64,000 nt of DNA from Acidihalobacter ferrooxydans (GCF_001975725.1 NZ_CP019434.1:1017041-1081040); one strand, 5' to 3'. Positions 17,112 through 36,110 are shown, numbered from the stretch's first letter. Notes: generated by a model from the sequence alone, not told the origin. Made by a program: numbers and translations.

Positions 17112-18877
17112 GCTGCGGCCCCCCGATAGAGTGCGTTCATGTTGGCATAGGCGCCGCCGGCTTCGAGCAGGTCGGCGTGATTGCCTTGTTCGACGATGCG
17201 ACCGCTGTCGAGCACGAGGATTCGATCAGCGCGGCGCACGGTTTCCAGCCGGTGGGCGATGACGAGCATGGCGCGATCCTGCGCGAGGCGTTCGACCGAT
17301 TCGGTGATGAGTGACTCGGTCTCGGGGTCGAGGCTGGCGCTGGCTTCGTCGAGCACGACGAGCCGGGCGTTCTTGAGAAAGGCGCGGGCCAGGGCGATGC
17401 GCTGGATTTCGCCGCCGGACAGCCCCTGCCCGCGATCACCGATCAAGGTGTCGTAGCCCTGCGGCAGGCGCTGGATGAAGCCGTCGGCATTGGCCAGACG
17501 CGCGGCCTCGCGCACTGCATCGGGGTCGGCGTCGGGACGGCCGAGGCGGATGTTGTCGAGCAGAGTGCCGTGGAACAGCGTCGGGCGCTGCGGCAGCCAG
17601 GCGACCTCGGCTTGCCAGGCGCTTTCGCTGAGTTCGCTCAGGTCGATGCCGTTGACGAGGATGCGCCCGCCCTGCGGCCGGATGAAGCCGAGCAGGAGCT
17701 GACTGAGGGTGGTTTTGCCCGCGCCGCTGGGGCCGACCAGCGCGACGCGCTCGCCTTGCCTGAGCGTGAACGCGATGCCGGAAAGCACCGGGTGTTGCGG
17801 TTCGTAGGCGAAACCGACGCTTTCATAGCGGATGTCCAGGGCGGCGCCGGCGGGCAGCGTGCGGCTGCCGGCATGCGCTTCGGGCAATGGGACGTTGAGG
17901 ATTTTGACGATCTGTTCGGTGGCGCCGATGGCTTCCATGCGGGCGTGGTACTGCGTGCCCATGGTGCGCAGCGGCAGGTAGAATTCGGGTGCGAGCAGCA
18001 GCACGGCGAAGCCCTGCAGAAAATGCATGTCGCCGTAATACAGACGAAAACCGATGAACACGGCGACCATGGCGACGCTCACGGTGGCCAGGAATTCGAG
18101 AATCAGCGAGGAGAGAAAGGCCACACGCAGTACGGCCATGGTGCTGCGGCGGTATTCGTCGGAAATTTCGGCAATGATCTCGCCTTCGTAACGGCTCGCG
18201 TTGAACAGTTTGAGCGTGGTCAGGCCTTCGATGACGTCGAAAAAGTGCGCGCTCATGCGTGCCAGCTTGCGCCACTGGCGCTGGTTGAGCCGTTCGGCAC
18301 CCTTGCCGATCAGGATCATGAAGAACGGGATCAGCGGCGCGGTGATGAGCATGATGATCCCGGATACCCAGTCGGTCGGGAACACGAAGACCAGGATGGC
18401 GAATGGGATAAAGACGGCGAGCACGGTCTGCGGCAGGTAGGCGGCGTAGTAGTTGTCGAGCGCCTCGATGCCGTCGACGGCAGTGTTGGCCAGGTCGCCG
18501 CTGCGCTGTTGGCGAGTCCAGGCCGGGCCGAGGCCTTCGATGTGGGTGTATAAGCGTTGGCGCAGATCGAGCTTGACGCGCGCGGCGGCTTCGAAGGCGG
18601 CGGTGTCGACCAGCGCGGCGAGCACAGCGCGTCCGGCGAATACGCCGAGCAGGCCGAGCAGCCAATGCCATACGTAGGCCAGTCCGTGCCCGTGGATGAC
18701 CACGGCGTTGATCGTGAGGGCCAGCAGCCAGGCTTGCAGGATGAGCAGCAGGCCGTTGGCCGCGCCGGCGCCGACGGCGAGCGTGAGCGGACGGCGAACC
18801 TGTTTGACGTGGACGCGCAACCAGTCGTTGAGCGCTTTGCTGGTGGCGCGGGGCATGGGTGCAGACGGTGAGGCCAT
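17108..18877 (-). CDS. cydD: Heterodimeric thiol exporter subunit CydD
   Basis: A 589-residue ABC half-transporter with an N-terminal membrane domain (about residues 30-320) and an ATPase domain with Walker A GPSGAGKTT, signature LSGGEIQR and Walker B LVVLDEASASLD. It partners CydC. It begins 111 nt downstream of the response regulator on the same strand, so the small membrane protein, kinase, regulator, cydD and cydC could be one transcription unit. Confidence 0.93.
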   Translation of the reverse strand: MASPSAPMPRATSKALNDWLRVHVKQVRRPLTLAVGAGAANGLLLILQAWLLALTINAVVIHGHGLAYVWHWLLGLLGVFAGRAVLAALVDTAAFEAAARVKLDLRQRLYTHIEGLGPAWTRQQRSGDLANTAVDGIEALDNYYAAYLPQTVLAVFIPFAILVFVFPTDWVSGIIMLITAPLIPFFMILIGKGAERLNQRQWRKLARMSAHFFDVIEGLTTLKLFNASRYEGEIIAEISDEYRRSTMAVLRVAFLSSLILEFLATVSVAMVAVFIGFRLYYGDMHFLQGFAVLLLAPEFYLPLRTMGTQYHARMEAIGATEQIVKILNVPLPEAHAGSRTLPAGAALDIRYESVGFAYEPQHPVLSGIAFTLRQGERVALVGPSGAGKTTLSQLLLGFIRPQGGRILVNGIDLSELSESAWQAEVAWLPQRPTLFHGTLLDNIRLGRPDADPDAVREAARLANADGFIQRLPQGYDTLIGDRGQGLSGGEIQRIALARAFLKNARLVVLDEASASLDPETESLITESVERLAQDRAMLVIAHRLETVRRADRILVLDSGRIVEQGNHADLLEAGGAYANMNALYRGAAA

Positions 18878-18988: not shown

Positions 18989-20368
18989 TTATTTCTGCAA
19001 GGCGTATTTCTGCACGCGGTAGCGCAGTGTTTCGCGGCTGACGCCGAGCGTGCGGGCAGCGGCGGAGAGGTTGCCGTCGTGCCGGTCAAGAGTGTGTTCG
19101 ATGACGCGCCGCTCGATGTCGTCGAGCGTCAGGCTGCCGTCGAGGGGCAGTTCCAGCATCGGCCCGCCCGGCCAGGCGATGGGGCAGGGGCTTGTGGTGC
19201 ACAACTGGAGCCAGCGTGTAGACAGTTGCGGGCCTTCGCTGAGCAAGACGCTGCGTTCGATGACATTGCGCAGTTCGCGCACGTTGCCGGGCCAGTTGTA
19301 CCGCTTGAGTTCGGCCATCATGTCGTCCGGAATCCTTTGCAGTTCCTTGCCGGCAATGGCGCTGAATTCGGCCACAAAGGCGGGCACGAGCTGTTCGAGG
19401 TCTTGCGGGCGCTCGCGCAGCGGCGGCAACTGGATGCGGAACACGCTCATGCGGTGATAGAGATCGGCGCGGAACGAGCCTTGCGCGACGCAGGCGGCGA
19501 GATCGCGGTGGGTGGCGGCGATAATCTGGGCGTCGACGCGGATTTCACGGGCGCCGCCGAGGCGTCGGATGCTGCGTTCTTCGATGGCGGTGAGCAGTTT
19601 GGCTTGCAGGTGGGTGTCCAGATCGCCGATTTCATCGAGGAACAGGGTGCCGCCATCGGCCTGTTCGAACAGGCCGGCATGGCGGCCGTGCGCGCCGGTG
19701 AACGCGCCGGCCTCATGGCCGAACAGTTCGGCCTCGATCAGCTCGCGCGGCAGCGCGGCGCAGTTCAGGTGGACGAACGGGCCTTCGCTGCGTGCGCCGG
19801 TGTGATGCAGGATGCGCGCGGCCAGACCCTTGCCGGTGCCCGTCTCGCCAGCCAGCAGCAGGGAGGTGAACGGCGCCTGCGCCAGGCGGCGCAACAGTTC
19901 CTGCACCTGGCGGTTGGCCGGGCTGTCGCCGAGCATGGCCTCGGGGCGGTAACGCTGGCTGCCGGCCTGCTGCTCGCGCTCCAGGCGGCGATGCGCGCGC
20001 GCCGCGCGGGCGGCGCCGGCGACCACGAGGTCGAGCCGGTCGCGCGGGCAGGGCTTTTCCAGAAATTCGTGCGCGCCCAGGCGCAACGCGCGAACCGAGT
20101 CCGGGACGCTGCCGTAACCGGTGAGAAAGATCCATTCCGAGCGATGCCCGGCCTCGCGCAGGCGTTCCAGCAGGTCGAGCGCGCTGCCGTCGGGCAGGCT
20201 CATGTCGGAAAGCACGACCAGGGGCTGAGGGGTGCTCGCGAGCAATTCGCGCTCGGCGTCGGCGAGTGTTCCGGCCAGGGTGGCGTCCCAGTTCTCACGC
20301 TTGAAGTGGCGCAGGAGTTCCTGGCCGAGCAGGGCTTCGTCTTCAATGATGAAAAGGGTGTCGGTCAT
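18989..20368 (-). CDS. NtrC-family sigma-54 response regulator
   Basis: A 459-residue activator with a receiver domain (acidic pair E9/D10, phospho-acceptor D55, lysine in FLEKP), a sigma-54 interaction AAA+ domain with Walker A GETGTGKG, the diagnostic GAFTGA loop and Walker B LFLDEIGD, and a C-terminal Fis-type helix-turn-helix (SAAARTLGVSRETLRYRV). It lies 68 nt after its kinase and directly before cydDC. Sigma-54-like promoters with paired palindromes upstream of all three cydA genes make those its probable targets. This is inferred from position only. Confidence 0.92.
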   Translation of the reverse strand: MTDTLFIIEDEALLGQELLRHFKRENWDATLAGTLADAERELLASTPQPLVVLSDMSLPDGSALDLLERLREAGHRSEWIFLTGYGSVPDSVRALRLGAHEFLEKPCPRDRLDLVVAGAARAARAHRRLEREQQAGSQRYRPEAMLGDSPANRQVQELLRRLAQAPFTSLLLAGETGTGKGLAARILHHTGARSEGPFVHLNCAALPRELIEAELFGHEAGAFTGAHGRHAGLFEQADGGTLFLDEIGDLDTHLQAKLLTAIEERSIRRLGGAREIRVDAQIIAATHRDLAACVAQGSFRADLYHRMSVFRIQLPPLRERPQDLEQLVPAFVAEFSAIAGKELQRIPDDMMAELKRYNWPGNVRELRNVIERSVLLSEGPQLSTRWLQLCTTSPCPIAWPGGPMLELPLDGSLTLDDIERRVIEHTLDRHDGNLSAAARTLGVSRETLRYRVQKYALQK

Positions 20369-20436: not shown

Positions 20437-21888
20437 TCAGCAGTCGGGGGCCTGCCGCGACGCCGGGCAGGCCAATACGAGCAGTGCGCGGGCACCGCCC
20501 TCGGGGCGGTTGGACAGCGTCAGCCGCCCCTGATTTTCATGCGCGAAACGCTGCACGGAAACCAGCCCAAGACCGGTGCCGCCTGGCTTGTCGGTGGTGA
20601 ACAGTTGCGGGCCCTGCTTGAGCATGGCTGCTGGAAAGCCGGGACCATTGTCTTCGACAATGATGCGCAGCTCATCGGCGACGCGCCCGGCTTGCACGCG
20701 GACTTCGCCGTTTTTGTCGCTGACGGCTTCGCAGGCATTTGAAATCAGGTTGTCCAGGGCGAGCCGGAGGCCGACTTCGGGAACCCGACAGCACAGTTTC
20801 GTCGGCGTTTCGATGCGCAGACGGCAATGGCCCTCGAAACGCAGTTGTTGCAGCCGGGCGATGGCCTGAAACTGCGTGGCGATGTCCACCGGGGTGGCCG
20901 CTTCGGGCTGCTGGCGCACACGCGCAAGCTGGGCATTGAGTGTGTCGACGAGACGATCGACTTCGGCGCCGACCAGTTGCAGCCGTTCACGCAGCTCGGG
21001 CGATTCGCAGTCGTTTTCCAGATTGTGCAGCGCGAGACGCACCCCGGCCAGGGGGTTGCGCAGGTCGTGGGCCAGGCTGGCGGCGAGTTCGCCGGCCGCG
21101 GCCAGGCGCTCAGCGCGAGTGAGGGCGCTTTGCGTGAGCATCAGTGAACGGGTCGTTTCGGCTACGGCAGTGGCCAGTTCGCGTTCGCGGCCGCGATGCG
21201 CGCTTTCGAGTTCCTGCAGTCGACCGACCAGCTGATTGTAGCTGTTGAACAGTGGCCGCAGCACCGGCGTCAGCTCGTCCGCGGGCAGCGGTCGGTAGGT
21301 CCGGTCCGAGAGGCTGACAAGCAGTTCGGCCAGGTGTTCGAGGGGTGCGACGAGTCGCCCGCGCAAGGCGTTGAGCAACGCGATAATGATGAACGGAAAT
21401 ACCAGTAGCGTGGTCAGGGACAGTTGCAGCGCGTGCAGCCCGGAGGTTTTGACCGCTTCGAAACGGCGCAGGTCGGAGGCGTTTTCCGCGGCGATGGCGT
21501 TGCTGAGCAATTTGCGCGCGCGCGGAAGCTGTGCGTTGGCGGTCGGCTGACGTAGCAGCGCGGCTGCTTCGCGCAAATCATCGGGCGTGTTGGCCTGCAT
21601 CCAGACGGGTGCCGTTGCCAGTTGATCGATCCGGCGGCTCAGTGGCCCCAGCGCCGCTGGCGGCGACGCGAGGCGGGCAGCAGCCTGCTCAAGTCGGCTC
21701 AGTTCCTGGACGTGGCGATACAGGGGATCGAAACGCTGCAGCCCGGTATACAAGAGGAACACGATCACGGCCATGGTCGCAGTCACCAGTAAGGTGCTGA
21801 GCAACACCGGCAGCCAGAGCGGCTGCGTGACCAGCAGGCGCAGGGCCTGACTGGGGGTGCGGGTGAGGCGTTCGTATTTGATGGGCAT
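20437..21888 (-). CDS. Membrane sensor histidine kinase
   Basis: A 483-residue kinase with two membrane segments (about residues 25-48 and 160-180) flanking a helical periplasmic sensor of about 110 residues, a linker, the H-box SLAHDLRNPL (about residue 282), N-box NLISNACEA, G1 DNGPGF and G2 GGTGLGL. It is the cognate partner of the adjacent NtrC-type regulator. The ligand is not predictable. Context suggests a redox, quinone or respiratory-inhibitor signal. It starts directly after the stop of the upstream small membrane protein. Confidence 0.9.
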   Translation of the reverse strand: MPIKYERLTRTPSQALRLLVTQPLWLPVLLSTLLVTATMAVIVFLLYTGLQRFDPLYRHVQELSRLEQAAARLASPPAALGPLSRRIDQLATAPVWMQANTPDDLREAAALLRQPTANAQLPRARKLLSNAIAAENASDLRRFEAVKTSGLHALQLSLTTLLVFPFIIIALLNALRGRLVAPLEHLAELLVSLSDRTYRPLPADELTPVLRPLFNSYNQLVGRLQELESAHRGRERELATAVAETTRSLMLTQSALTRAERLAAAGELAASLAHDLRNPLAGVRLALHNLENDCESPELRERLQLVGAEVDRLVDTLNAQLARVRQQPEAATPVDIATQFQAIARLQQLRFEGHCRLRIETPTKLCCRVPEVGLRLALDNLISNACEAVSDKNGEVRVQAGRVADELRIIVEDNGPGFPAAMLKQGPQLFTTDKPGGTGLGLVSVQRFAHENQGRLTLSNRPEGGARALLVLACPASRQAPDC

Positions 21889-22125
21889 TCAATGCTCTTG
21901 ACTGGCGCGCAGGCATTTTATTTCAGCGCGCAGCAGCAGACCATACAGAAAAAGGATGAAGACAATCATGCCCGCAGCGGCGATGCGCAGCCCCATGCTC
22001 ATATCGAAAATGATCGTGACCAGGGTGACCCCGAAGATCGGGCCAACCAGGAACAGTCCGAACAGGCGCAGATTCCAGGCCGCTTGTAGGGCGAGATTGT
22101 CGAATTGTCGGGCGGGAGTTTTCAT
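21889..22125 (-). CDS. Small two-helix membrane protein upstream of the kinase
   Basis: A 78-residue protein with two hydrophobic segments (about residues 18-40 and 45-66) and a basic/acidic C-terminus. Its stop codon abuts the kinase ATG with no gap, so the two are translated together. I do not recognise a family. It may be an accessory to the sensor kinase. A stretch of about 200 bp upstream (22126-22323) holds no gene and should carry the operon promoter. Confidence 0.65.
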   Translation of the reverse strand: MKTPARQFDNLALQAAWNLRLFGLFLVGPIFGVTLVTIIFDMSMGLRIAAAGMIVFILFLYGLLLRAEIKCLRASQEH

Positions 22126-22361: not shown

Positions 22362-23435
22362 TCAGTGCCCGTAAGCGACCAGCTTGGTGACGCGACCGCG
22401 AAACACCCACCATTGATAGGCGTTGTACATGATCATAATCGGGAAGAAGCCGATCATGGCCATGGTGAAGGTGATGATCGAAACGTTCGGGCTGGCGCCG
22501 CTGAAGATCGTCCAGGTGTTGGGCACGATCCACGGGAACATGGTTGCCATCATGCCACCCCACATCAGCGTCACGACCAGATTCAGCCAGAGAATGGCTG
22601 CCAGGTCGTGCCCTTTGGCCGTGGCCATGCGCGATTTGATGGCGGCGAACACGGTGGCGAGCAACACCAGCAGCCACGCCCACCAGTACGCTCCCAGCCA
22701 TTTGTGGACCGCCCAGGGGAACAGGAAGATGCTCCACACCACGGTGATCACGACTGCGGCCAACGCCAGGTAGAAAGAGGTGTTGGCCCAGGTCAGCGCC
22801 GTTTCACGCACGGGGCAGTGTTTCTCGAAGCGGGCGCGGATGAACAGGCCGCCGGCCAGCGCGACCGCGATCAGCGCGCCGAACCCGGTCCAGACGCTGA
22901 ACGGCGAGATGAACGCCAGGGGGCTGCCGGAATAGGTCGGCAGAGTGAACGGTCCGAGGTTCGCATGCGCGTTGCCCGGGTGCAGCGAGGTCATGGGGAA
23001 ACCGAGCAGTACAGCGCCCATCGCCATGCCGGCGAAATACGGCGTGACCAGGCTGCCGAAGCCGAACATGAAACCCCAGAAACGCTTGCTGCTCTCGGCG
23101 TGGTGATAGAACTCCAGCGAAATGGCCCGGCTGATGATGCCCCACAAGGCCAGCGCCAGCGGCACCATCAGAAAATGGAAGGCCGAGCCGTAGACAAAGG
23201 GGAAGGTGCCGAACATCACGCCGCCGGCGACCACCAGCCAGGTCTCGTTGGCGTCCCAGGTGCCGGCCATGGAGGCCATGATGGCGCCTTTTTCCTGCGG
23301 ATCCTTGATGAACAAAGAGATCACGCCGGCGCCGAGATCGGCGCCGTCGAGAACCAGGTAGGCCAGGAAACTGAAGCCGAGCAGAGCCCACCACGCGGTG
23401 GCGAGTATCTCCTGCATGGCAGATAAATGTTGCAT
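22362..23435 (-). CDS. cydB: Cytochrome bd-type (cyanide-insensitive) quinol oxidase subunit II, copy 1
   Basis: A 357-residue polytopic membrane protein with the N-terminal LDGADLGAG and GTWDANETWLVVAGG motifs of CydB/CioB. It is the second subunit of the quinol oxidase whose catalytic haems sit in CydA. It follows cydA1 after 49 nt. It is intact, unlike the remnant at 25249-25494, which matches its first 75 codons closely. No cydX-like small gene follows. Shorter length than E. coli CydB (379) fits the CIO group. Confidence 0.93.
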   Translation of the reverse strand: MQHLSAMQEILATAWWALLGFSFLAYLVLDGADLGAGVISLFIKDPQEKGAIMASMAGTWDANETWLVVAGGVMFGTFPFVYGSAFHFLMVPLALALWGIISRAISLEFYHHAESSKRFWGFMFGFGSLVTPYFAGMAMGAVLLGFPMTSLHPGNAHANLGPFTLPTYSGSPLAFISPFSVWTGFGALIAVALAGGLFIRARFEKHCPVRETALTWANTSFYLALAAVVITVVWSIFLFPWAVHKWLGAYWWAWLLVLLATVFAAIKSRMATAKGHDLAAILWLNLVVTLMWGGMMATMFPWIVPNTWTIFSGASPNVSIITFTMAMIGFFPIMIMYNAYQWWVFRGRVTKLVAYGH

Positions 23436-23484: not shown

Positions 23485-24930
23485 TCAGGCCGGGCGGACA
23501 TAGCGCGGCGATGCGCTTTCGTCGTGCGAGGGTTCTTCGAGATGACCGAGGTGCTCGTGACCTTCCCCGACCACCGGGCTGTCCATGTCGGGACCCTTGC
23601 GGATGATCTTGGAGAAGAAGTACCAGGTGCCACCCCATACAGTGAGCTCGAAGATGACGTAACCGGCCAACCAGAAAATTTCCTGGCCGACGGTCATCGG
23701 GCTCATGCCCTGTGCGGTGCGCATCAGGCCATAGACGATCCACGGCTGACGGGCGATCTCACGCGTCCACCAGCCGGTCCAGATCGCCAGATAGGGGAGG
23801 AAGGCGCTGAACACCAGGGTGCGGAGGAACCACTTGTTCTTCGCGATGCTGCTGATCGACAGGCGACCTTTGAACGCCAGCCATGCAGCCCACAGGGCGA
23901 CGAACCACAGGAAGAAGCCGATCGCGACCATGACGCGGAAGGAGTAGAACGGAATCACCACGGGCGGACGGTCCTTGGGAGCGATGGTGTCCATGCCGGG
24001 CACCTTGCCGTTGAGCGTATGCGTTTCGAGCATGCTCAACACATGCGGAATGGTGATTGCCCAGGCATTGCCGTTGCCTTCGGCGTTCGGCCAGGCCAGC
24101 AGATGCCAGCCGGTGTTGGGCGACCCATCCTTGTTAAGCGTATGGTAATGCCCCTCCATCGAGGCCAGTGCGGCGGGCTGATCGTGCGCGATGACCACCC
24201 CCAGTGTATCGCCTAGCCAGATCTGGAAGGGCACGACCAGCACGGCGGCGAGCAGGGCGTATTTCAGCGGACGGGCGAACAGATCCACATGGCGCCCCTT
24301 GAGCACGAACCAGGCGGACACGCCGGCGACGAAGAACAACGCCAGCACGATGCCGGCCACTACCATATGTGGCACCGCCCACACCATGTCCGGGGTGAAG
24401 ATCGCGGTATACCAGTTGGTGACGTGGAATGAGCCGTCCTGCAGTTTGACGCCGCGCGGGGTCTGCATCCAGGAATTGGCGATCAGAATCCACATCGCCG
24501 AGAGCAGGGACGAAAGCACCACGTTGAAGGTGGCGAACAGGTGCATCTTCTTGCCGATCTTGCCCCAGCCAAACACCATCAGACCGAGAAAACCGGCCTC
24601 ATACATAAAGGCCGTGATGGTTTCGTAGCCGAGGATCTGACCGAAGAAGGGTCCGGCGGCCTGCGAAAACGGCCCGAACAGAATCCCGAAGGACATCTCC
24701 ATGGTCACGCCGGTAGCCACACCGGCGCCGAAGTTGACAATGAACAGCTTTTCGAAGAAGCGATTTAGTCGGTACCAGTGCTCTTCGTTGGTTTTCATCC
24801 AGCGCCATTCAGAGAACAACAGCAAGGGTGCCAAGCCGAAGGTCAGTGGCGGATACAGGATGTGCATCGATGTGATCCACGCGAAATCAAATCGCGCGAG
24901 CAGCACCGATAGGGTGTTTTCCAACAGCAT
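23485..24930 (-). CDS. cydA: Cytochrome bd-type (cyanide-insensitive) quinol oxidase subunit I, copy 1
   Basis: A 481-residue CydA/CioA. Visible are the conserved segment MEMSFGILFGP...FFGQILGYE with proton-path glutamates and the Q-loop end REIARQPW. The length and the ARQPW variant fit the short-Q-loop, cyanide-insensitive group. The start at 24930 (MLLENTL) has GGAGGATC upstream. The longer open frame runs through the promoter. It is nearly identical to the copy at 25536-26981. A sigma-54-like promoter lies about 90-105 nt upstream. Confidence 0.94.
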   Translation of the reverse strand: MLLENTLSVLLARFDFAWITSMHILYPPLTFGLAPLLLFSEWRWMKTNEEHWYRLNRFFEKLFIVNFGAGVATGVTMEMSFGILFGPFSQAAGPFFGQILGYETITAFMYEAGFLGLMVFGWGKIGKKMHLFATFNVVLSSLLSAMWILIANSWMQTPRGVKLQDGSFHVTNWYTAIFTPDMVWAVPHMVVAGIVLALFFVAGVSAWFVLKGRHVDLFARPLKYALLAAVLVVPFQIWLGDTLGVVIAHDQPAALASMEGHYHTLNKDGSPNTGWHLLAWPNAEGNGNAWAITIPHVLSMLETHTLNGKVPGMDTIAPKDRPPVVIPFYSFRVMVAIGFFLWFVALWAAWLAFKGRLSISSIAKNKWFLRTLVFSAFLPYLAIWTGWWTREIARQPWIVYGLMRTAQGMSPMTVGQEIFWLAGYVIFELTVWGGTWYFFSKIIRKGPDMDSPVVGEGHEHLGHLEEPSHDESASPRYVRPA

Positions 24931-25019: not shown

Positions 25020-25036
25020 TGCATAACCAATGCCAA
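25020..25036 (-). promoter_or_regulatory. Putative sigma-54 promoter of cydA1
   Basis: On the minus strand TTGGCATTGGTTATGCA has GG and GC separated by exactly 10 nt, as required for -24/-12 elements (consensus TGGCACG-N4-TTGC). The start would lie near 25009, leaving about 80 nt of leader. The same 17 bases precede cydA2. Confidence 0.7.
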
Positions 25037-25087
25037 CTACAAGTTATTGATAGATAAGAGGAGGATCGCAAATGTGAGTGGCGAAAT

Positions 25088-25133
25088 TGTTGATATGAAC
25101 CACCATGACCAATCAGCATGGTTGATATAAACC
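25088..25133. promoter_or_regulatory. Paired palindromic activator sites of cydA1
   Basis: TGTTGATATGAACC (25088-25101) and GGTTGATATAAACC (25120-25133) fit the palindrome GGTTnATATnAACC. Their centres are 32 bp apart, about three helical turns, and the nearer site is 54 bp upstream of the -24 element. This is a normal position for a sigma-54 enhancer. Confidence 0.65.
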
Positions 25134-25248
25134 AATTCGGGGGCGTTCAGGAAGTCCTGAATAAAGAGTGGAAATACAACGAGAAGGGGGGAGTGACAGG
25201 GTCAAGGGTTTTGAGATAACCCCCGTTAAGTGGCTTTTTCCCTGTTCA

Positions 25249-25494
25249 TCAGACGAAGGGGAAGGCGCCGAATATCACGCCGCCGGCGACCACCAGCCAG
25301 GTCTCGTTGGCGTCCCAGGTGCCGGCCATGGAGGCCATGATGGCGCCTTTTTCCTGCGGATCCTTGATGAACAAAGAGATCACGCCGGCGCCGAGATCGG
25401 CGCCGGCGTGAACCAGGTAAGCCAGGAAACTGAAGCCGAGCAGGGCCTATCACTCGGTGGCAAGTACCTCCTGTATGCCAGATAAATGTTGCAT
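25249..25494 (-). pseudogene. cydB remnant (first ~75 codons, with two stops)
   Basis: Translation from ATG 25494 follows CydB1 almost exactly (MQHLSGIQEVLAT... GTWDANETWLVVAGG). The two tryptophan codons 15-16 of CydB1 are TGA and TAG here, and homology ends after FPFV near 25252. It lies 41 nt after cydA2 where an intact cydB would start. It is the scar of a partial tandem duplication, so cydA2 has no cydB of its own. Confidence 0.9.
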
Positions 25495-25535
25495 GATCGA
25501 TGACTCCTCAATGATTTAAAGAGACACAGCCTCAC

Positions 25536-26981
25536 TCAGGCCGGGCGCACATAGCTCGGCGGAGCGCTTTCGTCGTGCGAGGGTGCTTCGAGATGACCGA
25601 GATGCTCGTGACCTTCCCCGACCATCGGGCTGTCCATGTCGGGACCCTTGCGGATGATCTTGGAGATGAAGTACCAGGCACCGCCCCACACGGTGAGTTC
25701 GAAGATGATGTAACCGGCCAACCAGAAAATCTCCTGGCCGACGGTCATCGGGCTCATGCCCTGCGCGACACGCATCTGGCCGTAGACGATCCACGGCTGA
25801 CGGGCGATTTCGCGCGTCCACCAGCCGGTCCAGACCGCCAGATAGGGCAGGAAGGCGCTGAACACCAAGGTGCGGAGGAACCACTTGTTCTTCGCGACGC
25901 TGCTGATCGACAGGCGGCCTTTGAACGCCAGCCAGGCGGCCCACAGGGCGACGAACCACAGGAAGAAGCCGATCGCGACCATGACGCGGAATGCATAGAA
26001 CGGAATCACCACGGGCGGACGGTCTTTGGGAGCGATGCTGTCCATGCCGGGCACCTTGCCGTTGAGCGTATGCGTTTCGAGCAGGCTCAGCACATGCGGA
26101 ATGGTGATTGCCCAGGCATTGCCGGTGTGATCGGCATTCGGCCAGGCCAGCAGATGCCAGCCGGTGTTGGGCGACCCATCCTTGTTGAGCGTATGGTAAT
26201 GTCCCTCCATCGAGGCCAGTGCGGCGGGCTGATCGTGCGCAACGACCACCCCCTGGGAATCGCCCAGCCAGATCTGGAAGGGTGCGACCAGCACGGCGGC
26301 GAGCAGGGCGTATTTCAGCGGACGAGCGAACAGATCCACATGGCGCCCCTTGAGCACGAACCAGGCGGACACGCCGGCGATGAAGAACAGCGACAACTCA
26401 AGACCGGCCGTCACCATATGTGGCACCGCCCAGACGGCGTCGGGGCTAAAGATGGCGTCGAACCAGTTGATGACATGGAATGAGCCATCTACCAGCTTGA
26501 CGCCGCTAGGGGTCTGCATCCAGGAGTTTGCCATCACAATCCACATCGCCGAGAGCAGGGACGAGAGTGCAACGTTGAAGGTGGCGAACAGGTGCATCTT
26601 CTTGCCGATCCTGCCCCAGCCGAACACCATCAGGCCGATGAAACCAGCCTCATACATAAAGGCCGTGATGGTTTCATAGCCGAGGATCTGACCGAAGTAC
26701 GGTCCGGCAGCCTGCGAAAACGGGCCGAACAGGATGCCGAAGGCCATTTCCATAGTCACGCCGGTGGCCACGCCGGCGCCGAAGTTGACGATGAAGATTT
26801 TTTCGAAAAACCGGGTGAGCCGGTACCAGTGCTCTTCGTTGGTTTTCATCCAGCGCCATTCGGCGAAGACCAGCCACGTCGCCAAGCCGAAAGTCAGTGG
26901 CGGATACAGGATATGCATTGTGGTGATCCACGCGAAATCGAAGCGCGCGAGCAGCACCGGTAGGGTGTTTTCTAACAGCAT
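25536..26981 (-). CDS. cydA: Cytochrome bd-type quinol oxidase subunit I, copy 2 (orphan)
   Basis: A 481-residue CydA nearly identical to copy 1 through most of its length, with the same MEMAFGILFGP and REIARQPW motifs. Differences cluster around the periplasmic stretch encoded near 26380-26520. The start at 26981 has GGAGGATC upstream as in copy 1. It is followed only by the broken cydB remnant, so any product must pair with CydB1 or CydB3, or remain unassembled. The preserved frame and different residues argue that it is not simply decaying. Confidence 0.93.
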   Translation of the reverse strand: MLLENTLPVLLARFDFAWITTMHILYPPLTFGLATWLVFAEWRWMKTNEEHWYRLTRFFEKIFIVNFGAGVATGVTMEMAFGILFGPFSQAAGPYFGQILGYETITAFMYEAGFIGLMVFGWGRIGKKMHLFATFNVALSSLLSAMWIVMANSWMQTPSGVKLVDGSFHVINWFDAIFSPDAVWAVPHMVTAGLELSLFFIAGVSAWFVLKGRHVDLFARPLKYALLAAVLVAPFQIWLGDSQGVVVAHDQPAALASMEGHYHTLNKDGSPNTGWHLLAWPNADHTGNAWAITIPHVLSLLETHTLNGKVPGMDSIAPKDRPPVVIPFYAFRVMVAIGFFLWFVALWAAWLAFKGRLSISSVAKNKWFLRTLVFSAFLPYLAVWTGWWTREIARQPWIVYGQMRVAQGMSPMTVGQEIFWLAGYIIFELTVWGGAWYFISKIIRKGPDMDSPMVGEGHEHLGHLEAPSHDESAPPSYVRPA

Positions 26982-27050
26982 TGGTTTGATCCTCCATGAC
27001 GTTTAGTGGAGATGAACTTCGTGGTTCTTGCTGAAGTCGTTCATCAACGC

Positions 27051-27067
27051 TGCATAACCAATGCCAA
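27051..27067 (-). promoter_or_regulatory. Putative sigma-54 promoter of cydA2
   Basis: TTGGCATTGGTTATGCA on the minus strand, identical over 17 bases to the cydA1 promoter, with the GG-N10-GC spacing. It lies 70-86 nt upstream of the cydA2 start. Confidence 0.7.
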
Positions 27068-27118
27068 TTACAAGTTATTGATATATATGTATAGTCTAGA
27101 ATAGATGAGTGACGAAAT

Positions 27119-27164
27119 TGTTGATAAGAGCCACCATGACCAACCAGGTGGGTTGATATAAACC
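27119..27164. promoter_or_regulatory. Paired palindromic activator sites of cydA2
   Basis: TGTTGATAAGAGCC (27119-27132) and GGTTGATATAAACC (27151-27164) repeat the cydA1 layout, with centres 32 bp apart and the nearer site 54 bp from the -24 element. The distal site is identical to its cydA1 counterpart. The proximal one has changed at two bases. Confidence 0.62.
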
Positions 27165-27208
27165 AATTCGGTGTTGCTCAGAAGTCAGAGGAAAAAGTGC
27201 GAAGAGAG

Positions 27209-27236
27209 GGCGGCGCGAGACTGCTCCCGCGCCGCC
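27209..27236 (-). terminator. Terminator-like hairpin after cydB3
   Basis: GGCGGCGCG and CGCGCCGCC form a 9-bp GC stem with a 10-nt loop, starting 8 nt past the cydB3 stop. A five-T run occurs about 12 nt further on the minus strand, so termination may be imperfect. Confidence 0.6.
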
Positions 27237-27243
27237 GGCGTGG

Positions 27244-28281
27244 TCAGTGGCCGTAGGCGGCGAGTTTGGTGATGCGGGCGCGAAACACCCAGATCTGATA
27301 CCAGTTGTACATGATCATCACCGGGAAAAATCCACCCATCGCAAGTGTGAAGGTGAAGATCGAGACGGACGGACTCGCGCCACTGTAGAGGGTCCAGGTG
27401 CCCGGTACGATCCAGGGATACATGGTAGCCATCATTCCGCCCCACATCAGCGTGATGGCGAGGTTGAGCCACAGAATGGCGTTCAGGTCATTGCCCAGCG
27501 CCGAGGCGCGACGCATGCGGATCACGGCGTACACCGTGATCAGGCCGAGCACGATCCAGACCCAGGCATGCGGTCCCAGCCACTTCGAGGACGCCCACGG
27601 GAACGCGAACAGGCTCCATATGACGGTCACGAGCACCGCGGCCAGCGCCAGCCAGAACGTGGTGTTGGTCCAGGTGGCGGCGCGCTTGCGGATCGGACAG
27701 TGCGGCTCGAAGCGGGCGCGCACGAACAGTCCGCCGGCCAGCGCGGCCGCAACCACGGCGCCGATGCCAGTCCAGATACTGAACGGACTGAGGAACAGGA
27801 ACGCGCCGCCGGAGAAGGTCGGCACCGGCCCGGAAGTCATCGGAAAGCCCTTGAGCACGGCGCCGATGGCGACACCTGCGGAGAACACGGCGGTGAGGCT
27901 GGAGACGCCGAAGGCGCGATCCCAGAACACTTTGCTGCGTTCCGCGTGGTGGCGGAACTCCAGCGCCACGGCACGCGTGATGATGCTCCACAGCGCGAAG
28001 GCCAGTGGCACCAGTAGATAGTGAAAGGCCGAGCCGTAGACCAGCGGGAAGGTGCCGAACAGTACGCCGCCTGCGACTACCAGCCAGGTCTCGTTGGCGT
28101 CCCAGGTGCCGGCCATCGCGGCCATGATGGCGCCGCGTTCCTGTTTGTCCCGCAGGAAGAGCGAGAAGATGCCGGCGCCGAGGTCGGCGCCGTCGAGGAT
28201 GATGTAAAGCAGCAGGCTGAGGCCAAGCGCGATCCACCAGGCGAAGGTGATGATTTGTTGCGTTTGCGTCAATGTGTCCAT
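27244..28281 (-). CDS. cydB: Cytochrome bd-type quinol oxidase subunit II, copy 3
   Basis: A 345-residue CydB/CioB with LDGADLGAG, GTWDANETWLVVAGG and the C-terminal ending AAYGH shared with copy 1. It is clearly more divergent from copy 1 than the cydA1/cydA2 pair are from each other, so it is an older paralogue. It follows cydA3 by 27 nt. Together they form a complete quinol oxidase. Confidence 0.93.
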   Translation of the reverse strand: MDTLTQTQQIITFAWWIALGLSLLLYIILDGADLGAGIFSLFLRDKQERGAIMAAMAGTWDANETWLVVAGGVLFGTFPLVYGSAFHYLLVPLAFALWSIITRAVALEFRHHAERSKVFWDRAFGVSSLTAVFSAGVAIGAVLKGFPMTSGPVPTFSGGAFLFLSPFSIWTGIGAVVAAALAGGLFVRARFEPHCPIRKRAATWTNTTFWLALAAVLVTVIWSLFAFPWASSKWLGPHAWVWIVLGLITVYAVIRMRRASALGNDLNAILWLNLAITLMWGGMMATMYPWIVPGTWTLYSGASPSVSIFTFTLAMGGFFPVMIMYNWYQIWVFRARITKLAAYGH

Positions 28282-28308
28282 CGTCTGTCTCCTTGATCGG
28301 TTCGCGGC

Positions 28309-29748
28309 TCAGGCCGGACGCACATAGGCGGGGTCGGCGTTTTCGTCATGCGAAGGTGCTTCGAGATGCCCCAGCGGTTCATTGCCTTCCACAATCGGGC
28401 TGTCCATGTCGGGGCCCTTGCGGATCACCTTGGCGAAGAAGTACCAGGCTCCGAACCAGACGCCGAGTTCAAAGAACATGAAACCGATCAGCCAGAAAAT
28501 GGCTTCACCGACGCTCATGTGACTGACGCCCTCGGCGGTGGTCATCATGCCGTATACCAGCCAGGGCTGACGGGCGATTTCGCGCGTCCACCAACCGGTC
28601 CAGATCGCCAGATAGGGCAGAAACGCGCTGAAGATCAGCGCGCGCAGGAACCATCTGTTTCGAGTGATGTTCTCGACGGTCAGACGGCCGCGCACGGCGA
28701 GCCAGGCACCCCACAGGGCCACGAAAAACAGGGCGAAGCCGATCGCCACCATGATGCGGAAACTGTAAAACGGAATCAGTACCGGCGGGCGCTCTGCGGG
28801 CTTGAACTGATCGAGGCCCTTCACGACGCCATTCAGTGTGTGTGTTTCGATCAGACTCAGGGCGTACGGAATGGTGATTGCCCAGTCATTCTTGCCTGCG
28901 GCATCGTTGGGCCAGGCGATGATGTGCCAGCCGGTGTTGGGCTGACCGTCGGCATTGTAGGTCTCGAAATGTCCTTCCATGGCGGCCAGGGCGGCTGGCT
29001 GATGGTCCTTGACCGTGAGTCCGAGGTCGTCGCCCAGATAGATCTGCAACGGCGCGACGATGACTGCGGCCAGAATCGAGTATTTCAGCGCGCGCTGGAA
29101 CAGCGCGACGTGACGACCCTTGAGCACATACCAGGCCGAGACGCCGGCAACGAAGAACAGGGCCAGTTCCACCGCTGCAATCCACATGTGCGGGAAGGCT
29201 ACGAGGAAGTCTGGATTGAGGATGGCCTCTGCCCAGTTGGTGACATGGAACAGGCCGTCCTTGAATTCGACGCCGGTTGGCGTTTGCATCCACGAGTTCG
29301 CGTCCAGAATCCACATCGCCGAGAGGCTCGACGAGAGCATCACGTTGAAGGTGGCGAACAGATGCATTTTTTTGCTGATCTTGCCCCAGCCGAAAATCAT
29401 CAGGCCGATGAAACCGGCCTCGTACATGAAGGCGGTGATGGTTTCATAGCCGAGAATCTGGCCGAAGAAGGGCCCGGCGGCCTGCGAAAACGGCCCATAC
29501 AGAATGCCGAAGGCCATTTCCATAGTGACGCCGGTAGCGACGCCGGCGCCGAAGTTGATAATGAACAGCTTTTCGAAGAAGCGGGTCAGCCGGTACCACT
29601 GTTCGTCATCGGTTTTCATCCAGCGCCACTCTGTGAAAAACAGCAGCAGGGCCAGCCCGATGGTCAGCGGCGGATAAATAATATGCATGGTGGTGATCCA
29701 TGCAAAATCGAGTCGCGAGATTAAAAGCGCAAGGTCTGATTCAATCAT
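28309..29748 (-). CDS. cydA: Cytochrome bd-type quinol oxidase subunit I, copy 3
   Basis: A 479-residue CydA/CioA with MEMAFGILYGP, FFGQILGYE and REIARQPW, again of the short-Q-loop type. The start at 29748 (MIESDLALLI) follows an A/T-rich leader with a GGGGTATT-like site. It is the first gene of an intact cydAB pair and has the best sigma-54 consensus of the three units upstream. Confidence 0.94.
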   Translation of the reverse strand: MIESDLALLISRLDFAWITTMHIIYPPLTIGLALLLFFTEWRWMKTDDEQWYRLTRFFEKLFIINFGAGVATGVTMEMAFGILYGPFSQAAGPFFGQILGYETITAFMYEAGFIGLMIFGWGKISKKMHLFATFNVMLSSSLSAMWILDANSWMQTPTGVEFKDGLFHVTNWAEAILNPDFLVAFPHMWIAAVELALFFVAGVSAWYVLKGRHVALFQRALKYSILAAVIVAPLQIYLGDDLGLTVKDHQPAALAAMEGHFETYNADGQPNTGWHIIAWPNDAAGKNDWAITIPYALSLIETHTLNGVVKGLDQFKPAERPPVLIPFYSFRIMVAIGFALFFVALWGAWLAVRGRLTVENITRNRWFLRALIFSAFLPYLAIWTGWWTREIARQPWLVYGMMTTAEGVSHMSVGEAIFWLIGFMFFELGVWFGAWYFFAKVIRKGPDMDSPIVEGNEPLGHLEAPSHDENADPAYVRPA

Positions 29749-29818
29749 TATTAATACCCCTATATAATTTTGTAATGCCCCGTTTAGCCTGAATTCACGG
29801 ACTAAGCTGAATCGTCAA

Positions 29819-29834
29819 AGCAAAAAACGCGCCA
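29819..29834 (-). promoter_or_regulatory. Putative sigma-54 promoter of cydA3
   Basis: TGGCGCGTTTTTTGCT on the minus strand matches the -24/-12 consensus TGGCRCG-N4-TTGCW at every defined base. The start would be about 60 nt upstream of the cydA3 ATG. Confidence 0.78.
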
Positions 29835-29889
29835 TCTCAGGAAACCGCGGAAAACCGGGGGTGTGGCGATGATCCGAGAAGCCGTTGGT

Positions 29890-29921
29890 GGTTGATATGA
29901 GCCATGTGGTTTATATCAACC
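29890..29921. promoter_or_regulatory. Paired palindromic activator sites of cydA3
   Basis: GGTTGATATGAGCC (29890-29903) and GGTTTATATCAACC (29908-29921) are the same 14-bp element in opposite orientation, with centres 18 bp apart and 57 bp upstream of the -24 element. The spacing differs from the 32 bp at the other two promoters. Confidence 0.65.
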
Positions 29922-30499: not shown

Positions 30500-33400
30500 T
30501 CAATCGGGCGCTTGGGCAAGTACGTGGTCCAGCCAGCGGGCAGTGAGTCGGTCGGACAGACGGTTCTGCGCCTGGCGGGCGGCGAGGTTGCCGACATCGA
30601 TCCACGCGAGCGGCTGGTCCTGCTCGGCGCAGGAGAATACCGCGCGGGTGCGTTCGCCGGTTTCGGGGTCGATCTGCCATTGCAGGCACTGCCCGCACAC
30701 ACCCTTGAGCATGCATTGCATCGGGCTGCCGACGGTGCCGTGGGCCTGTACGCCGTCCTTGAACAGCGGGTGCAGGCGGCCGTTCGGCTGGAGCGCCTGC
30801 TGGAACGCGCCGAGCAGGCCGGTTGAACCCATGACCATGATCTGGTCGACCGCGCTGAGCGGGGTGTGCGACTGACCACGTTTACCGAACTCGCCGGCAC
30901 CGTAGCGCTGCAGCAGTTCGACCACGTCGCGCGCTTCGATGCTGATGTCCTGCGGGCGCCGGGCGTCGATCTGACGGCCCGAACCGACCGCCCAGATGAT
31001 CTGGTCGGCGGCCTGTTCGAGTTCGTCCTGACGGTCGAGTTCGTGCGCGGAGCTGAAGGCGCCGACGTAGACCACGCGGTTGCCCGCGGCACGCAGTGCC
31101 GGGCCGAGGTCGAGCATGACCGCCGCGCCCCAGCGGCCGGCGACGATGAGTACGGTTTTGCCTTCGGGGATGTGTACGGGCGCGCCGGTCGGGCCCATGA
31201 GCACCACCGGTTCGCCCGGTTTGAGCCGACCGGTGAGCCGCGGGCTGCTGCCCCATTGCAGTACCAGCAGGCGGATGCGGTCGCCGTCCACGCCGGTGCC
31301 GCTGACGGTGATGACCGGAATCTGCAGGCGGGTGTTCTCGACGGTCTCGCTGGTGCTCTCGAAGGTCTGCAGGCGGAAAAACTGGCCGGGACGGTAGTTG
31401 CGTGCGGCCATCGGCGCGCGCACCCAAAGCTCGACTACCGCCGGACTGGGGCGCAGCACTTCGGCGACGGTGGCGACGAGGCGGTCGTCGAGGCGCTGGG
31501 CGAAGGCGTCGTAGGCCTCCTCGTCGTGCGCGGGCAGGGTGTTCAATGCGCGCATGACGCCGCCGTAGCTGCGCTTGGCCGAGGCGATGGCCTTGACCAC
31601 GCTGCCGTTGAACACGGGGTTGGTGTCGCCGAGGAAGGTGACCTTGCGGCCCTGATTCTCGTAGGAGGTGAAGCCGCCGAATTCCTTACTCTTGCAGTGC
31701 TCGGAGACATCCACGGGCTGCAGGCTGCCGGTGTGGTTGCGGTGCGGTTTGTAGTGTGTGCCCTCGAGTTCGAAGGTGTTGGGGTATTCGCGTTCGTAGA
31801 GCGTGTTGGGCACGGTGCCGGCGGCGACGAACACGGCGCGCGCGGGCAGGCGCACTTCTTCGTTGGTGCCGATCCAGCGGCCTTCCTGGGCGATCACGCG
31901 GCGGAACACCACGGCTTCGGTGTGCAGGGAGTCATCCAGCTCGACGCGCTGCGGGTCGAGGCCTTCGGCGTAGTAGATGCCTTCCTCGGCGGCCTTGATG
32001 ATTTCCTCGTGGTTGCGCAGGTAGGCGGGGGAGGCGTTCATGCCCTTGCGATACGCCAGGGTCACGCCGCCCCATTCGCGCAGCAGATGAATGAAGTCCG
32101 GCGCGCGGCCTTCGGCGGCGGCGCGTTCGCGCTCGGCGCGCACGGCGCGGCCGTGGGCGAGGAATTCGGCCAACACGCCCTGGTCTTCCGGGTTGAGGCC
32201 GGGGAGGATGTCGCCGTCGCCGCCCTCGGCTTCGAGCGCTTCATGGCGCGCCAGCACCTTTTCGACCTGTTTGATGTAATAGGCCTGCACTTCGGTGGCG
32301 GTATCGATGGCAGTCAGGCCGCCGCCGATGACGACCGCCGGCAGGCGTACCTGCAGATTGGCGAGGCTGTCTTCCTTGCCCGCGCCGGTGAGTTGCAGGG
32401 CCATCAGAAAGTCGCTGGCCTGGCGCATGCCGCGGGCCAGGCTGTTGCCGATGGGAATGACGCGCGGCAGGCCGGCGCCGGTGGCGAGGCAGACGTGGTC
32501 GAAGCCCAGACGCCAGGCGTCGTCGAGGGTCAGCGTACCGCCGAGGCGCACGCCGCCGAAGGCCTGGAAGGTGGGGCGGCGCAGCAGGGTGAGGTAGATC
32601 AGCTTGAGGAAGTTTTTGTCCCAGCGCGGGGTGATGCCGTATTCGGCAACGCCGCCGAAGCCGAGCAGAATGCGGCTGTCGAGCGGTTCGACGAGGTCGC
32701 TCCAGTGTTCCACGGGTGCGTCGATCAGTGCTTGCGGCAACGGTTCGATCTTGAGGCCGTCGATACCGACCACGGCGCAGCCTTCCTGCGTCAGGTGATG
32801 GGCCATGGTGAAGCCGGCCGGGCCGAGGCCGGCGATGAGCACGCGGCGGCCGTTATAGTCTTGCATCACCGGTTGTTTGCTGCGCAGCGGATTCCAGCGG
32901 GTGAGCAGATCGTAGAGCTCCACGCCCCAGGGCAGATCCAGAATGTCGGTCAGTACGCGGGTTTCGATCTGCGGAATGTTGACCGGGTCCTGCTTCTGGT
33001 AGATGCAGGCTTTCATGCAGTCGTTGCAGATGCGGTGGCCGGTCGCGGGAATCATCGGGTTGTCGCGCATGGCGACGGCCAGCGCGGCCAGCGGACGGCC
33101 GTCGCGGCGCAGCGCGTGCATCTCGGAAATTTTTTCTTCCAGCGGGCAGCCGGTGAGCGTGTTGCCGAGCGGGTCCTGCTTGAGGCCGAGTTCGGGCGAG
33201 CCTTTCTTCTCCGGGAAACCCTTGGCGCAGAAGTCGCCGTCGTGATCGTGGCAGAAGATGCAGTAATTGACCTGATCCTGCACCGCGCGCAGGCCGGCGC
33301 GGGTGTCGGTGAGGGCGAAGCCGTCGCGGGGGCGCCAATGAATGGGCTCGGCCTGCAGGCGACCGTATGGGTCGCCGGTTGCTGCTTGCAGGTTGACCAG

Positions 33401-33988
33401 CCGCGCGTGATCGACGCGTCCTGGCAGGCGGAAGCTGACCCAGTCGGCGACATCGACCGGCTCCTTGAGCGTGACGACGGCCCACTGGATCAGGCGGTCG
33501 AGATCGGCGGCGGCTTCGGGGTCGTTGATCAGCCGGTCGAAGAGCAGGGCGGTGCCGAGTTCCATGTCGCCGGGGGCCTGTTCGGCGGCGCGTTCGGCGA
33601 CCCAGGCGTGCAGTTCCTCGCGGCTGGCGCTGATCTGACCGCGGTAGCGGCGAGCGCGGCGCGAGACGAGGCCGGCCTTCATGCGCATGACCGGATCCTG
33701 GGCCAGGATTTCGGCGCGCAGTTCGCCGATGGCGTCATCCAGCGAGAACAGTCGGGTGAGGAAGTCTTCGAGATGGCCTGAGGTGGCGATCAGCCATTCG
33801 CTCAGTTCCAGCCCTTCGGGGCGCTCACCGGCGCGGATCGCGTCCAGGCGCGAGGCCAGTGCGGGCGCGGCTTCGGTGAGTTCTGCGCGGAAGGCGGCGT
33901 CGAGCCGGGACAGGCCCTGAGCGGTACGCAAGGCAGCGTAATCGAGGTCGAGGCGTTCCAGTCCAGGGAAGCGGGCGGTGGTCTGCAT
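30500..33988 (-). CDS. Fused GltD-like / PyrK-like flavin iron-sulfur oxidoreductase
   Basis: A 1162-residue protein. Residues 1-240 are unassigned. About 243-325 hold cysteine clusters (NYCIFCHDHDGDFC, GCPLEE, ICNDCMKAC) like the double 4Fe-4S N-domain of GltD. About 380-800 form the FAD/NAD(P)-binding part (VLIAGLGPAGF, VVIGGGLTAIDTA). About 845 to the end resemble PyrK/ferredoxin-NADP reductase, with YRPGQFFRL for FAD and a 2Fe-2S set CX5CX2C (CMLKGVCGQC) plus a later Cys. This is the combined content of NfnB and NfnA in one chain, so an electron-bifurcating or NADPH-ferredoxin exchange role is possible. It appears monocistronic. The substrate is not shown by sequence. Confidence 0.85.
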   Translation of the reverse strand: MQTTARFPGLERLDLDYAALRTAQGLSRLDAAFRAELTEAAPALASRLDAIRAGERPEGLELSEWLIATSGHLEDFLTRLFSLDDAIGELRAEILAQDPVMRMKAGLVSRRARRYRGQISASREELHAWVAERAAEQAPGDMELGTALLFDRLINDPEAAADLDRLIQWAVVTLKEPVDVADWVSFRLPGRVDHARLVNLQAATGDPYGRLQAEPIHWRPRDGFALTDTRAGLRAVQDQVNYCIFCHDHDGDFCAKGFPEKKGSPELGLKQDPLGNTLTGCPLEEKISEMHALRRDGRPLAALAVAMRDNPMIPATGHRICNDCMKACIYQKQDPVNIPQIETRVLTDILDLPWGVELYDLLTRWNPLRSKQPVMQDYNGRRVLIAGLGPAGFTMAHHLTQEGCAVVGIDGLKIEPLPQALIDAPVEHWSDLVEPLDSRILLGFGGVAEYGITPRWDKNFLKLIYLTLLRRPTFQAFGGVRLGGTLTLDDAWRLGFDHVCLATGAGLPRVIPIGNSLARGMRQASDFLMALQLTGAGKEDSLANLQVRLPAVVIGGGLTAIDTATEVQAYYIKQVEKVLARHEALEAEGGDGDILPGLNPEDQGVLAEFLAHGRAVRAERERAAAEGRAPDFIHLLREWGGVTLAYRKGMNASPAYLRNHEEIIKAAEEGIYYAEGLDPQRVELDDSLHTEAVVFRRVIAQEGRWIGTNEEVRLPARAVFVAAGTVPNTLYEREYPNTFELEGTHYKPHRNHTGSLQPVDVSEHCKSKEFGGFTSYENQGRKVTFLGDTNPVFNGSVVKAIASAKRSYGGVMRALNTLPAHDEEAYDAFAQRLDDRLVATVAEVLRPSPAVVELWVRAPMAARNYRPGQFFRLQTFESTSETVENTRLQIPVITVSGTGVDGDRIRLLVLQWGSSPRLTGRLKPGEPVVLMGPTGAPVHIPEGKTVLIVAGRWGAAVMLDLGPALRAAGNRVVYVGAFSSAHELDRQDELEQAADQIIWAVGSGRQIDARRPQDISIEARDVVELLQRYGAGEFGKRGQSHTPLSAVDQIMVMGSTGLLGAFQQALQPNGRLHPLFKDGVQAHGTVGSPMQCMLKGVCGQCLQWQIDPETGERTRAVFSCAEQDQPLAWIDVGNLAARQAQNRLSDRLTARWLDHVLAQAPD

Positions 33989-35414: not shown

Positions 35415-36110
35415 TTATTCTTCCGCCGCCAGTTTGCACAGTGCGCCGCGATTGAGGATTTCTATTTCGCCGCGGTGCGTCGTAACCCAACCCTGTTCGG
35501 CGAAATGCTTGAGCATGCGGCCGATCACTTCTCGCGCGCTACCGAGTTCGACGGCCAGCGCCTGGTGCGTGATGGCGATATGCGGGGAGTCGCTGCCGAG
35601 CGCGAGAAGCCGCTTGGCGAGACGCGCGTCGAGCCGCTCGAAGGCGATTTCCTCCAGCAGACGCAGCAGCGCGGCCAGCCGTTCGCCATACGCGGCGAAG
35701 ATGAAACGGCGTAAGCCCTCGGAGGTTTCCATCGCGTCCTGAAAGGCTGCGGCGGGGATGGCGGCGGCGACCACATCCGTTTCGCTGATGCCTTCGGCGA
35801 CGTAGCGGCTGTGCGCGAGCAGACAGGTGGTGGTGAGTACGCACGATTCGCCGGGGCCGACCCGGTAGAGCACGATTTCGCGTCCGCTGACGGCCAGTTG
35901 CTGAACCCGGACCGTGCCGTCGATGATCAGCAGGTAGTTGCGGCAGACGGCGCCGGATTCAAAGACTGTCGTCTGCGCCGGCACGCGCACGATTTGCGCC
36001 GCACGCAGGATGCGCTGGCCAGCGGCATCGTCGATGGCGCGCAAGGCCGGAAAGCGTTCAAACCAGACAGTTTCGTGCATCGCGGATTCGTGCATCGCGG
36101 ATTCGTGCAT
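35415..36110 (-). CDS. Crp/Fnr-family transcription regulator
   Basis: A 231-residue regulator with an N-terminal cyclic-nucleotide-type beta-barrel (about residues 25-140), a dimerisation helix and a C-terminal winged helix-turn-helix (HQALAVELGSAREVIGRML). It lacks the N-terminal cysteine cluster of FNR, so it is not an Fnr-type oxygen sensor. The 5' end has three in-frame ATGs, 15 nt apart, created by a tandem repeat. The true start could be 36110, 36095 or 36080. It lies 18 nt downstream of aguB, so it may be cotranscribed with the agmatine genes. Confidence 0.88.
   Translation of the reverse strand: MHESAMHESAMHETVWFERFPALRAIDDAAGQRILRAAQIVRVPAQTTVFESGAVCRNYLLIIDGTVRVQQLAVSGREIVLYRVGPGESCVLTTTCLLAHSRYVAEGISETDVVAAAIPAAAFQDAMETSEGLRRFIFAAYGERLAALLRLLEEIAFERLDARLAKRLLALGSDSPHIAITHQALAVELGSAREVIGRMLKHFAEQGWVTTHRGEIEILNRGALCKLAAEE

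Follow-up and report, generated by a model that had tools for sequence, protein, structure and literature searches.

Paired palindromes as candidate enhancers of an NtrC-type regulator at the cytochrome bd genes of Acidihalobacter ferrooxydans

Described sigma-54 systems and the locus studied here

The better-known regulators of cytochrome bd oxidase are ArcA, FNR and those of the RegA type. The element considered here is a 14-bp palindrome, GGTTnATATnAACC, that stands in pairs upstream of three cydA genes in a stretch of 64,000 nucleotides from Acidihalobacter ferrooxydans (GCF_001975725.1 NZ_CP019434.1:1017041-1081040), referred to as the window, with positions counted from its first letter. 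An earlier note on this DNA had put the palindrome forward as a candidate for a new class of operator, with the local regulator as its binding protein, a proposal that the confinement of the motif and the comparison of regulator orthologues support. The pairs are very probably the enhancers (upstream activating sequences, UAS) of the NtrC-type response regulator encoded at 18989-20368 on the minus strand of the same gene cluster, as judged from the sequence comparisons given below.

The closest described system is the cyd locus of Acidithiobacillus ferrooxidans ATCC 23270, the only case of sigma-54 control of cyd found in the open-licence literature. In the portion of that report drawn on here, 5' rapid amplification of cDNA ends places two promoters at cyd, one for sigma-54 (TGGCACAGAGATTGCT) and one for sigma-70; the sigma-54-dependent regulator gene AFE_0957 adjoins and is suggested as the activator; sites for integration host factor (IHF) are predicted; and no UAS is defined (PMC5506826). 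One sampled genome, G387, carries this published promoter (100% identity over 117 bp), and its family is named as Acidithiobacillus below because of this match. The G387 locus differs from the window in having a long-type cydA (544 amino acids) and a distant neighbouring sigma-54 regulator (43% identity over the AAA+ part), and the genome is without an orthologue of the window regulator, a short-type cydA or a palindrome pair.

Like the system proposed here, TspS/TspR of Acidithiobacillus caldus (sox-II) is a two-component pair that works with sigma-54 in an acidophile oxidising sulfur, and the palindromic UAS that it binds stands in front of an energy-metabolism cluster (PMC6335251). The targets of TspR, however, are sox genes, and its UAS, TGTCCCAAATGGGACA, is unrelated to the palindrome described here and has no match in the window even when three mismatches are allowed. 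In 2025, a survey classified the sigma-54 regulators of Acidithiobacillia into nine groups and left cytochromes unmentioned in its main text, so the cyd assignment would fill a gap (PMC12194929). The mechanism class is already known, while the operator and the regulator assignment appear new within the open-licence literature searched. An uncharacterised and fairly widespread sigma-54 regulator gains a candidate operator and a target list, bd oxidase gains a directly testable candidate enhancer, and joint control of two to six cytochrome bd copies in acidophiles is suggested.

Palindrome pairs and their distribution

The six copies in three pairs described by the earlier note are present, with the reported start-to-start distances of 32 (cydA1), 32 (cydA2) and 18 bp (cydA3); three of the six match fully, two are one mismatch off and one is poor. 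Pair P1, upstream of cydA1, comprises a promoter-proximal copy at 25088-25101 (TGTTGATATGAACC, one mismatch) and an exact distal copy at 25120-25133 (GGTTGATATAAACC); pair P2, upstream of cydA2, comprises a degenerate copy at 27119-27132 (TGTTGATAAGAGCC, three mismatches) and an exact copy at 27151-27164; pair P3, upstream of cydA3, comprises copies at 29890-29903 (GGTTGATATGAGCC, one mismatch) and 29908-29921 (exact). The second cydA3 copy had been called inverted, a term with little meaning for a palindrome, since the two copies are distinguished by their degenerate central positions alone.

Each pair is followed by a sigma-54 -24/-12 element on the minus strand, located at 25020-25035 for cydA1 and 27051-27066 for cydA2 (TGGCATTGGTTATGCA in both) and at 29819-29834 for cydA3 (TGGCGCGTTTTTTGCT). 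The gap from the nearer palindrome measures 52, 52 and 55 bp, respectively, slightly below the stated 54-57 bp. The rpoN gene is present in the genome (TIGR02395 above cut-off). In the gaps of cydA1 and cydA2 there are IHF-consensus sites at 25040-25052 and 27071-27083 (CAAGTTATTGATA in both, zero mismatches, a consensus match only).

The motif is not spread at random. With up to two mismatches, the window holds seven matches, five of which fall in the cyd cluster, against 0.8 expected from shuffles, and none of 100 shuffles reached seven. The exact motif occurs four times in the whole genome (3,448,835 bases), three times at cyd, while the fourth copy (455809) falls inside an unrelated gene, at codons 4-8 of a ketosynthase-like reading frame. 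The scan of the genome combined pattern searches with short stretches, in which all but about a dozen of the two-mismatch sites were inspected. With one mismatch allowed, the wider consensus, GGTKNATATNMACC, which was drawn from the pairs of the relatives, has 28 sites. Neither among these nor among the inspected sites of the original motif at up to two mismatches, which were most of the total, does any outside cyd have a good pair with a well-placed sigma-54 element. On this evidence, the predicted regulon in this genome looks confined to the three cyd promoters. It is the pair with a sigma-54 element that is diagnostic; a single copy separates weakly, as exact single motifs number 31 in 18 genomes with the regulator and 13 in 18 genomes without it. 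Two weak copies 44 bp apart recur at 261398/261442 and 2217530/2217574, inverted between the two sites, in what looks like a mobile element.

Four relatives in the window's family keep the order cydA-cydB-histidine kinase-response regulator-cydD-cydC, with regulators 70-81% identical, and in these a palindrome pair (for instance, GGTGGATATCAACC with GGTGGATATCCACC) and a sigma-54 element precede cydA. Of 21 genomes in the Acidithiobacillus family, 14 have both the regulator orthologue and a short-type cydA and the other seven have neither, a coincidence with a chance of about 9e-6 under free reassortment, a figure that ignores shared descent. In the four genomes of this family whose regulator locus was read at length, the regulator lies away from cyd, beside gpsA or squalene/hopanoid-type genes (L152 and L302-L304, L-numbers being the labels of loci in this analysis). 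Despite the unlinked regulator, the short-type cydA genes of this family are preceded by palindrome pairs or triplets and a sigma-54 element. A third palindrome-like copy nearer the sigma-54 element was seen in the cydA promoters L269, L270, L274, L278, L290 and L295. When up to five mismatches are allowed in the pair, the architecture is found in 31 of 36 upstream regions of short-type cydA in both families, in none of 16 of other cydA and about zero times in shuffles; the short-type cydA of L242 and L276 have one mismatch too many to be counted. The distances from the pairs to the -24 element cluster near 64-69, 75-80, 88-90 and 112-113 bp. Strict helical phasing was considered and dropped in view of these groups and of pair spacings that span 18-26 and 30-32 bp.

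Beyond these families, the regulator orthologues constitute a distinct group of 51-61% identity, the next-best proteins of the relatives search reaching 44% at most. Of the 369 genomes of the class that were sampled, 17 carry such an orthologue, a count that takes in the window's family. Most of the other-family loci are not beside cyd, yet they show the same layout of pair and sigma-54 element. When every pair with a total of at most four mismatches and a sigma-54 element behind it is scored, 18 distinct arrangements occur in 385 kb (the window and 19 orthologue loci). The 1,165 kb surrounding 78 more distant NtrC-type regulators contain no such arrangement, nor do the reversed sequences. The architecture precedes the kinase-regulator operon itself at L146, L155, L156 and L055, YfdX-like genes at L150 and L154, a DegQ-like protease gene at L146 and L148, and a DUF202 gene at L146; L146, L148, L150 and L154 represent genomes in which the regulator is not beside cydA. 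At L148, a cydB-like gene lies directly upstream of the kinase. A conserved protein of 115-117 amino acids, probably secreted, is encoded between the palindrome pair and the kinase gene at L055, L155 and L156, and its L155 copy has no Pfam match.

The proposed regulator and competing explanations

The response regulator combines PF00072 (REC), PF00158 (sigma-54 AAA+) and PF02954 (HTH_8, Fis-type helix-turn-helix) in one protein. It has GAFTGA at 221-226, which is GAFTDA in one distant orthologue, and D55, the candidate phospho-acceptor aspartate, is invariant in six aligned orthologues. The paired candidate sites upstream of a -24/-12 promoter are what would be expected of an NtrC-type regulator with a UAS. 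Its best-scoring NCBIfam models are NtrC (TIGR01818) and AtoC (NF008469), which share its domain plan and mode of action, but it scores far under the cut-offs of all the named regulators shown; it was rejected both as an NtrC orthologue (355.6 against a cut-off of 558.6 bits) and as an AtoC equivalog (355.9 against 714). FisR-type persulfide control was also considered and set aside, FisR being described without a partner kinase.

In the proposed mechanism, the membrane kinase (20437-21888) would phosphorylate the regulator, and the phosphorylated form would bind two neighbouring palindromes as dimers, which on adjacent sites would build the active AAA+ ring. Through a DNA loop, this ring would reach across the 52-55 bp to the -24/-12 element, remodel the sigma-54 RNA polymerase there and switch on each cydA; the IHF-like sites may aid DNA bending at the cydA1 and cydA2 promoters. 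Low oxygen, excess reduction of the quinone pool or periplasmic stress might be the signal. Phosphorylation, binding, looping and the direction of activation are predictions made from the DNA.

An alternative source of control is a Crp/Fnr-family regulator, such as the product of the gene at 35415-36110 or an FNR homologue, that binds the palindromes while the sigma-54-like elements are incidental. The Crp-type gene lies about 5 kb from the palindromes, and the distal copies of cydA1 and cydA2 are one mismatch off the FNR consensus TTGATN4ATCAA, so the earlier note's statement that the motif does not fit FNR is too strong for these copies; it does hold for the relatives, which retain GGTK...MACC around ATAT and have lost the TTGAT halves (GGTGGATATCCACC, GGTGCATATGCACC). 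An FNR-type operator was rejected on this account, being one to two mismatches off in the window with halves that are not conserved in relatives. The Crp-type gene is, moreover, absent from all the relatives' loci read, and the pairs, 64-113 bp upstream of the sigma-54 element, are placed like typical enhancers and not like Crp/Fnr sites. Control of this type is considered very unlikely, and the evidence points to the kinase and regulator of the same operon as the more plausible source.

It is equally improbable that another NtrC-type regulator of the genome binds the sites and the linked one acts elsewhere. DNA sites alone cannot name a protein, and a search of the genome for NtrC-type proteins gives nine matches at E <= 1e-60, at least eight of them paralogues of the linked regulator. 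Against this stand the pairs themselves, which in many families accompany orthologues of the linked regulator and were not found near other NtrC-type regulators, together with the perfect co-occurrence in the At. ferrooxidans family and the linkage of regulator and cyd in one operon in five genomes. The motif might also have no regulatory meaning and have arisen with the duplication of cyd promoters or with a repeated element. The cydA1 and cydA2 promoters, which are 79% identical over 188 bp and are therefore a duplication, speak for this reading, but it has hardly any probability left, given that the cydA3 promoter has only the palindromes in common with them, that the flanks diverge in relatives and other families while the layout of pair and sigma-54 element stays, and that some promoters carry third palindrome copies.

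Several observations weigh against the assignment of the pairs to the linked regulator as its enhancers. Owing to the duplication of cydA1 and cydA2, the window gives two independent instances and not three, and one of its six copies (27119) is poor. The Acidithiobacillus-family short-type cydA genes of L275 and L291 are without a pair, as is a fourth short-type cydAB of the window's own genome (2574311). Some of the non-cyd pairs among the 18 arrangements are weak (total mismatches 3-4), and the match thresholds were chosen after the motif had been seen. The gap of cydA3 has no IHF-consensus site, and such sites are modestly enriched, in 11 of 31 architecture-bearing cydA promoters against 3.1 expected; a general IHF requirement was rejected on this count.

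The operator code GGTKNATATNMACC would be a property of the regulator family and not of cyd as such, since the same operator precedes the regulator family's own operon and envelope or stress genes elsewhere. It was hypothesized, with about an even chance of being right, that the two-component system, found in about 5% of the sampled gammaproteobacterial genomes, began as an ancestral envelope/stress switch on its own operon (YfdX-like, DegQ, DUF202) with one operator code, the paired GGTKNATATNMACC; in acidophiles it would have been rewired to command every expanded short-type bd copy, becoming unlinked in Acidithiobacillus and, in the window's family, taking a place inside the cyd operon.

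The cyd cluster and neighbouring genes

The cluster has the composition of a cytochrome bd operon, with cydA (PF01654), cydB (PF02322) and cydDC nearby. Its order on the minus strand is cydA3, cydB3, cydA2, a cydB2 remnant, cydA1, cydB1, a small open reading frame (ORF), histidine kinase, response regulator, cydD and cydC. The genes for subunit I are cydA3 (28309-29748, short type, 479 amino acids), cydA2 (25536-26981, 481 amino acids) and cydA1 (23485-24930, 481 amino acids), and those for subunit II are cydB3 (27244-28281) and cydB1 (22362-23435). The cydB2 remnant (25252-25494) is truncated to about 81 N-terminal codons with two internal stops and is 88% identical to CydB1; because cydB2 is broken, the cydA2 promoter would drive a cydA without its own cydB. 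The sensor histidine kinase (20437-21888; HisKA, HATPase_c) precedes the response regulator (18989-20368; REC, sigma-54 AAA+ with GAFTGA, HTH_8), the proposed UAS-binding protein, followed by the ATP-binding cassette exporter subunits cydD (17108-18877; TIGR02857 above cut-off) and cydC (15399-17111; TIGR02868 above cut-off).

The small hydrophobic ORF (21889-22125) encodes 78 amino acids between cydB1 and the kinase and has no match in Pfam or NCBIfam. Small ORFs resembling it occupy the same place in four relatives (L046-L049), and it may serve the sensor or the oxidase as an accessory.

The fourth short-type cydAB of the genome (2574311; L252 6046-8806) has insertion sequences at its flanks. 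A sigma-54-like element is retained there, and another inverted repeat, TGCAAN5TTGCA, takes the place of the palindrome pair about 78 bp upstream. A fifth cydAB, of the long type, lies at about 2203626 (L255 5621-8446) and is without the motif. Upstream of the cyd cluster in the window, positions 30500-33988 of the minus strand encode a fusion-like oxidoreductase of 1162 amino acids (Pyr_redox_2) with a weak match to dihydropyrimidine dehydrogenase domain II.

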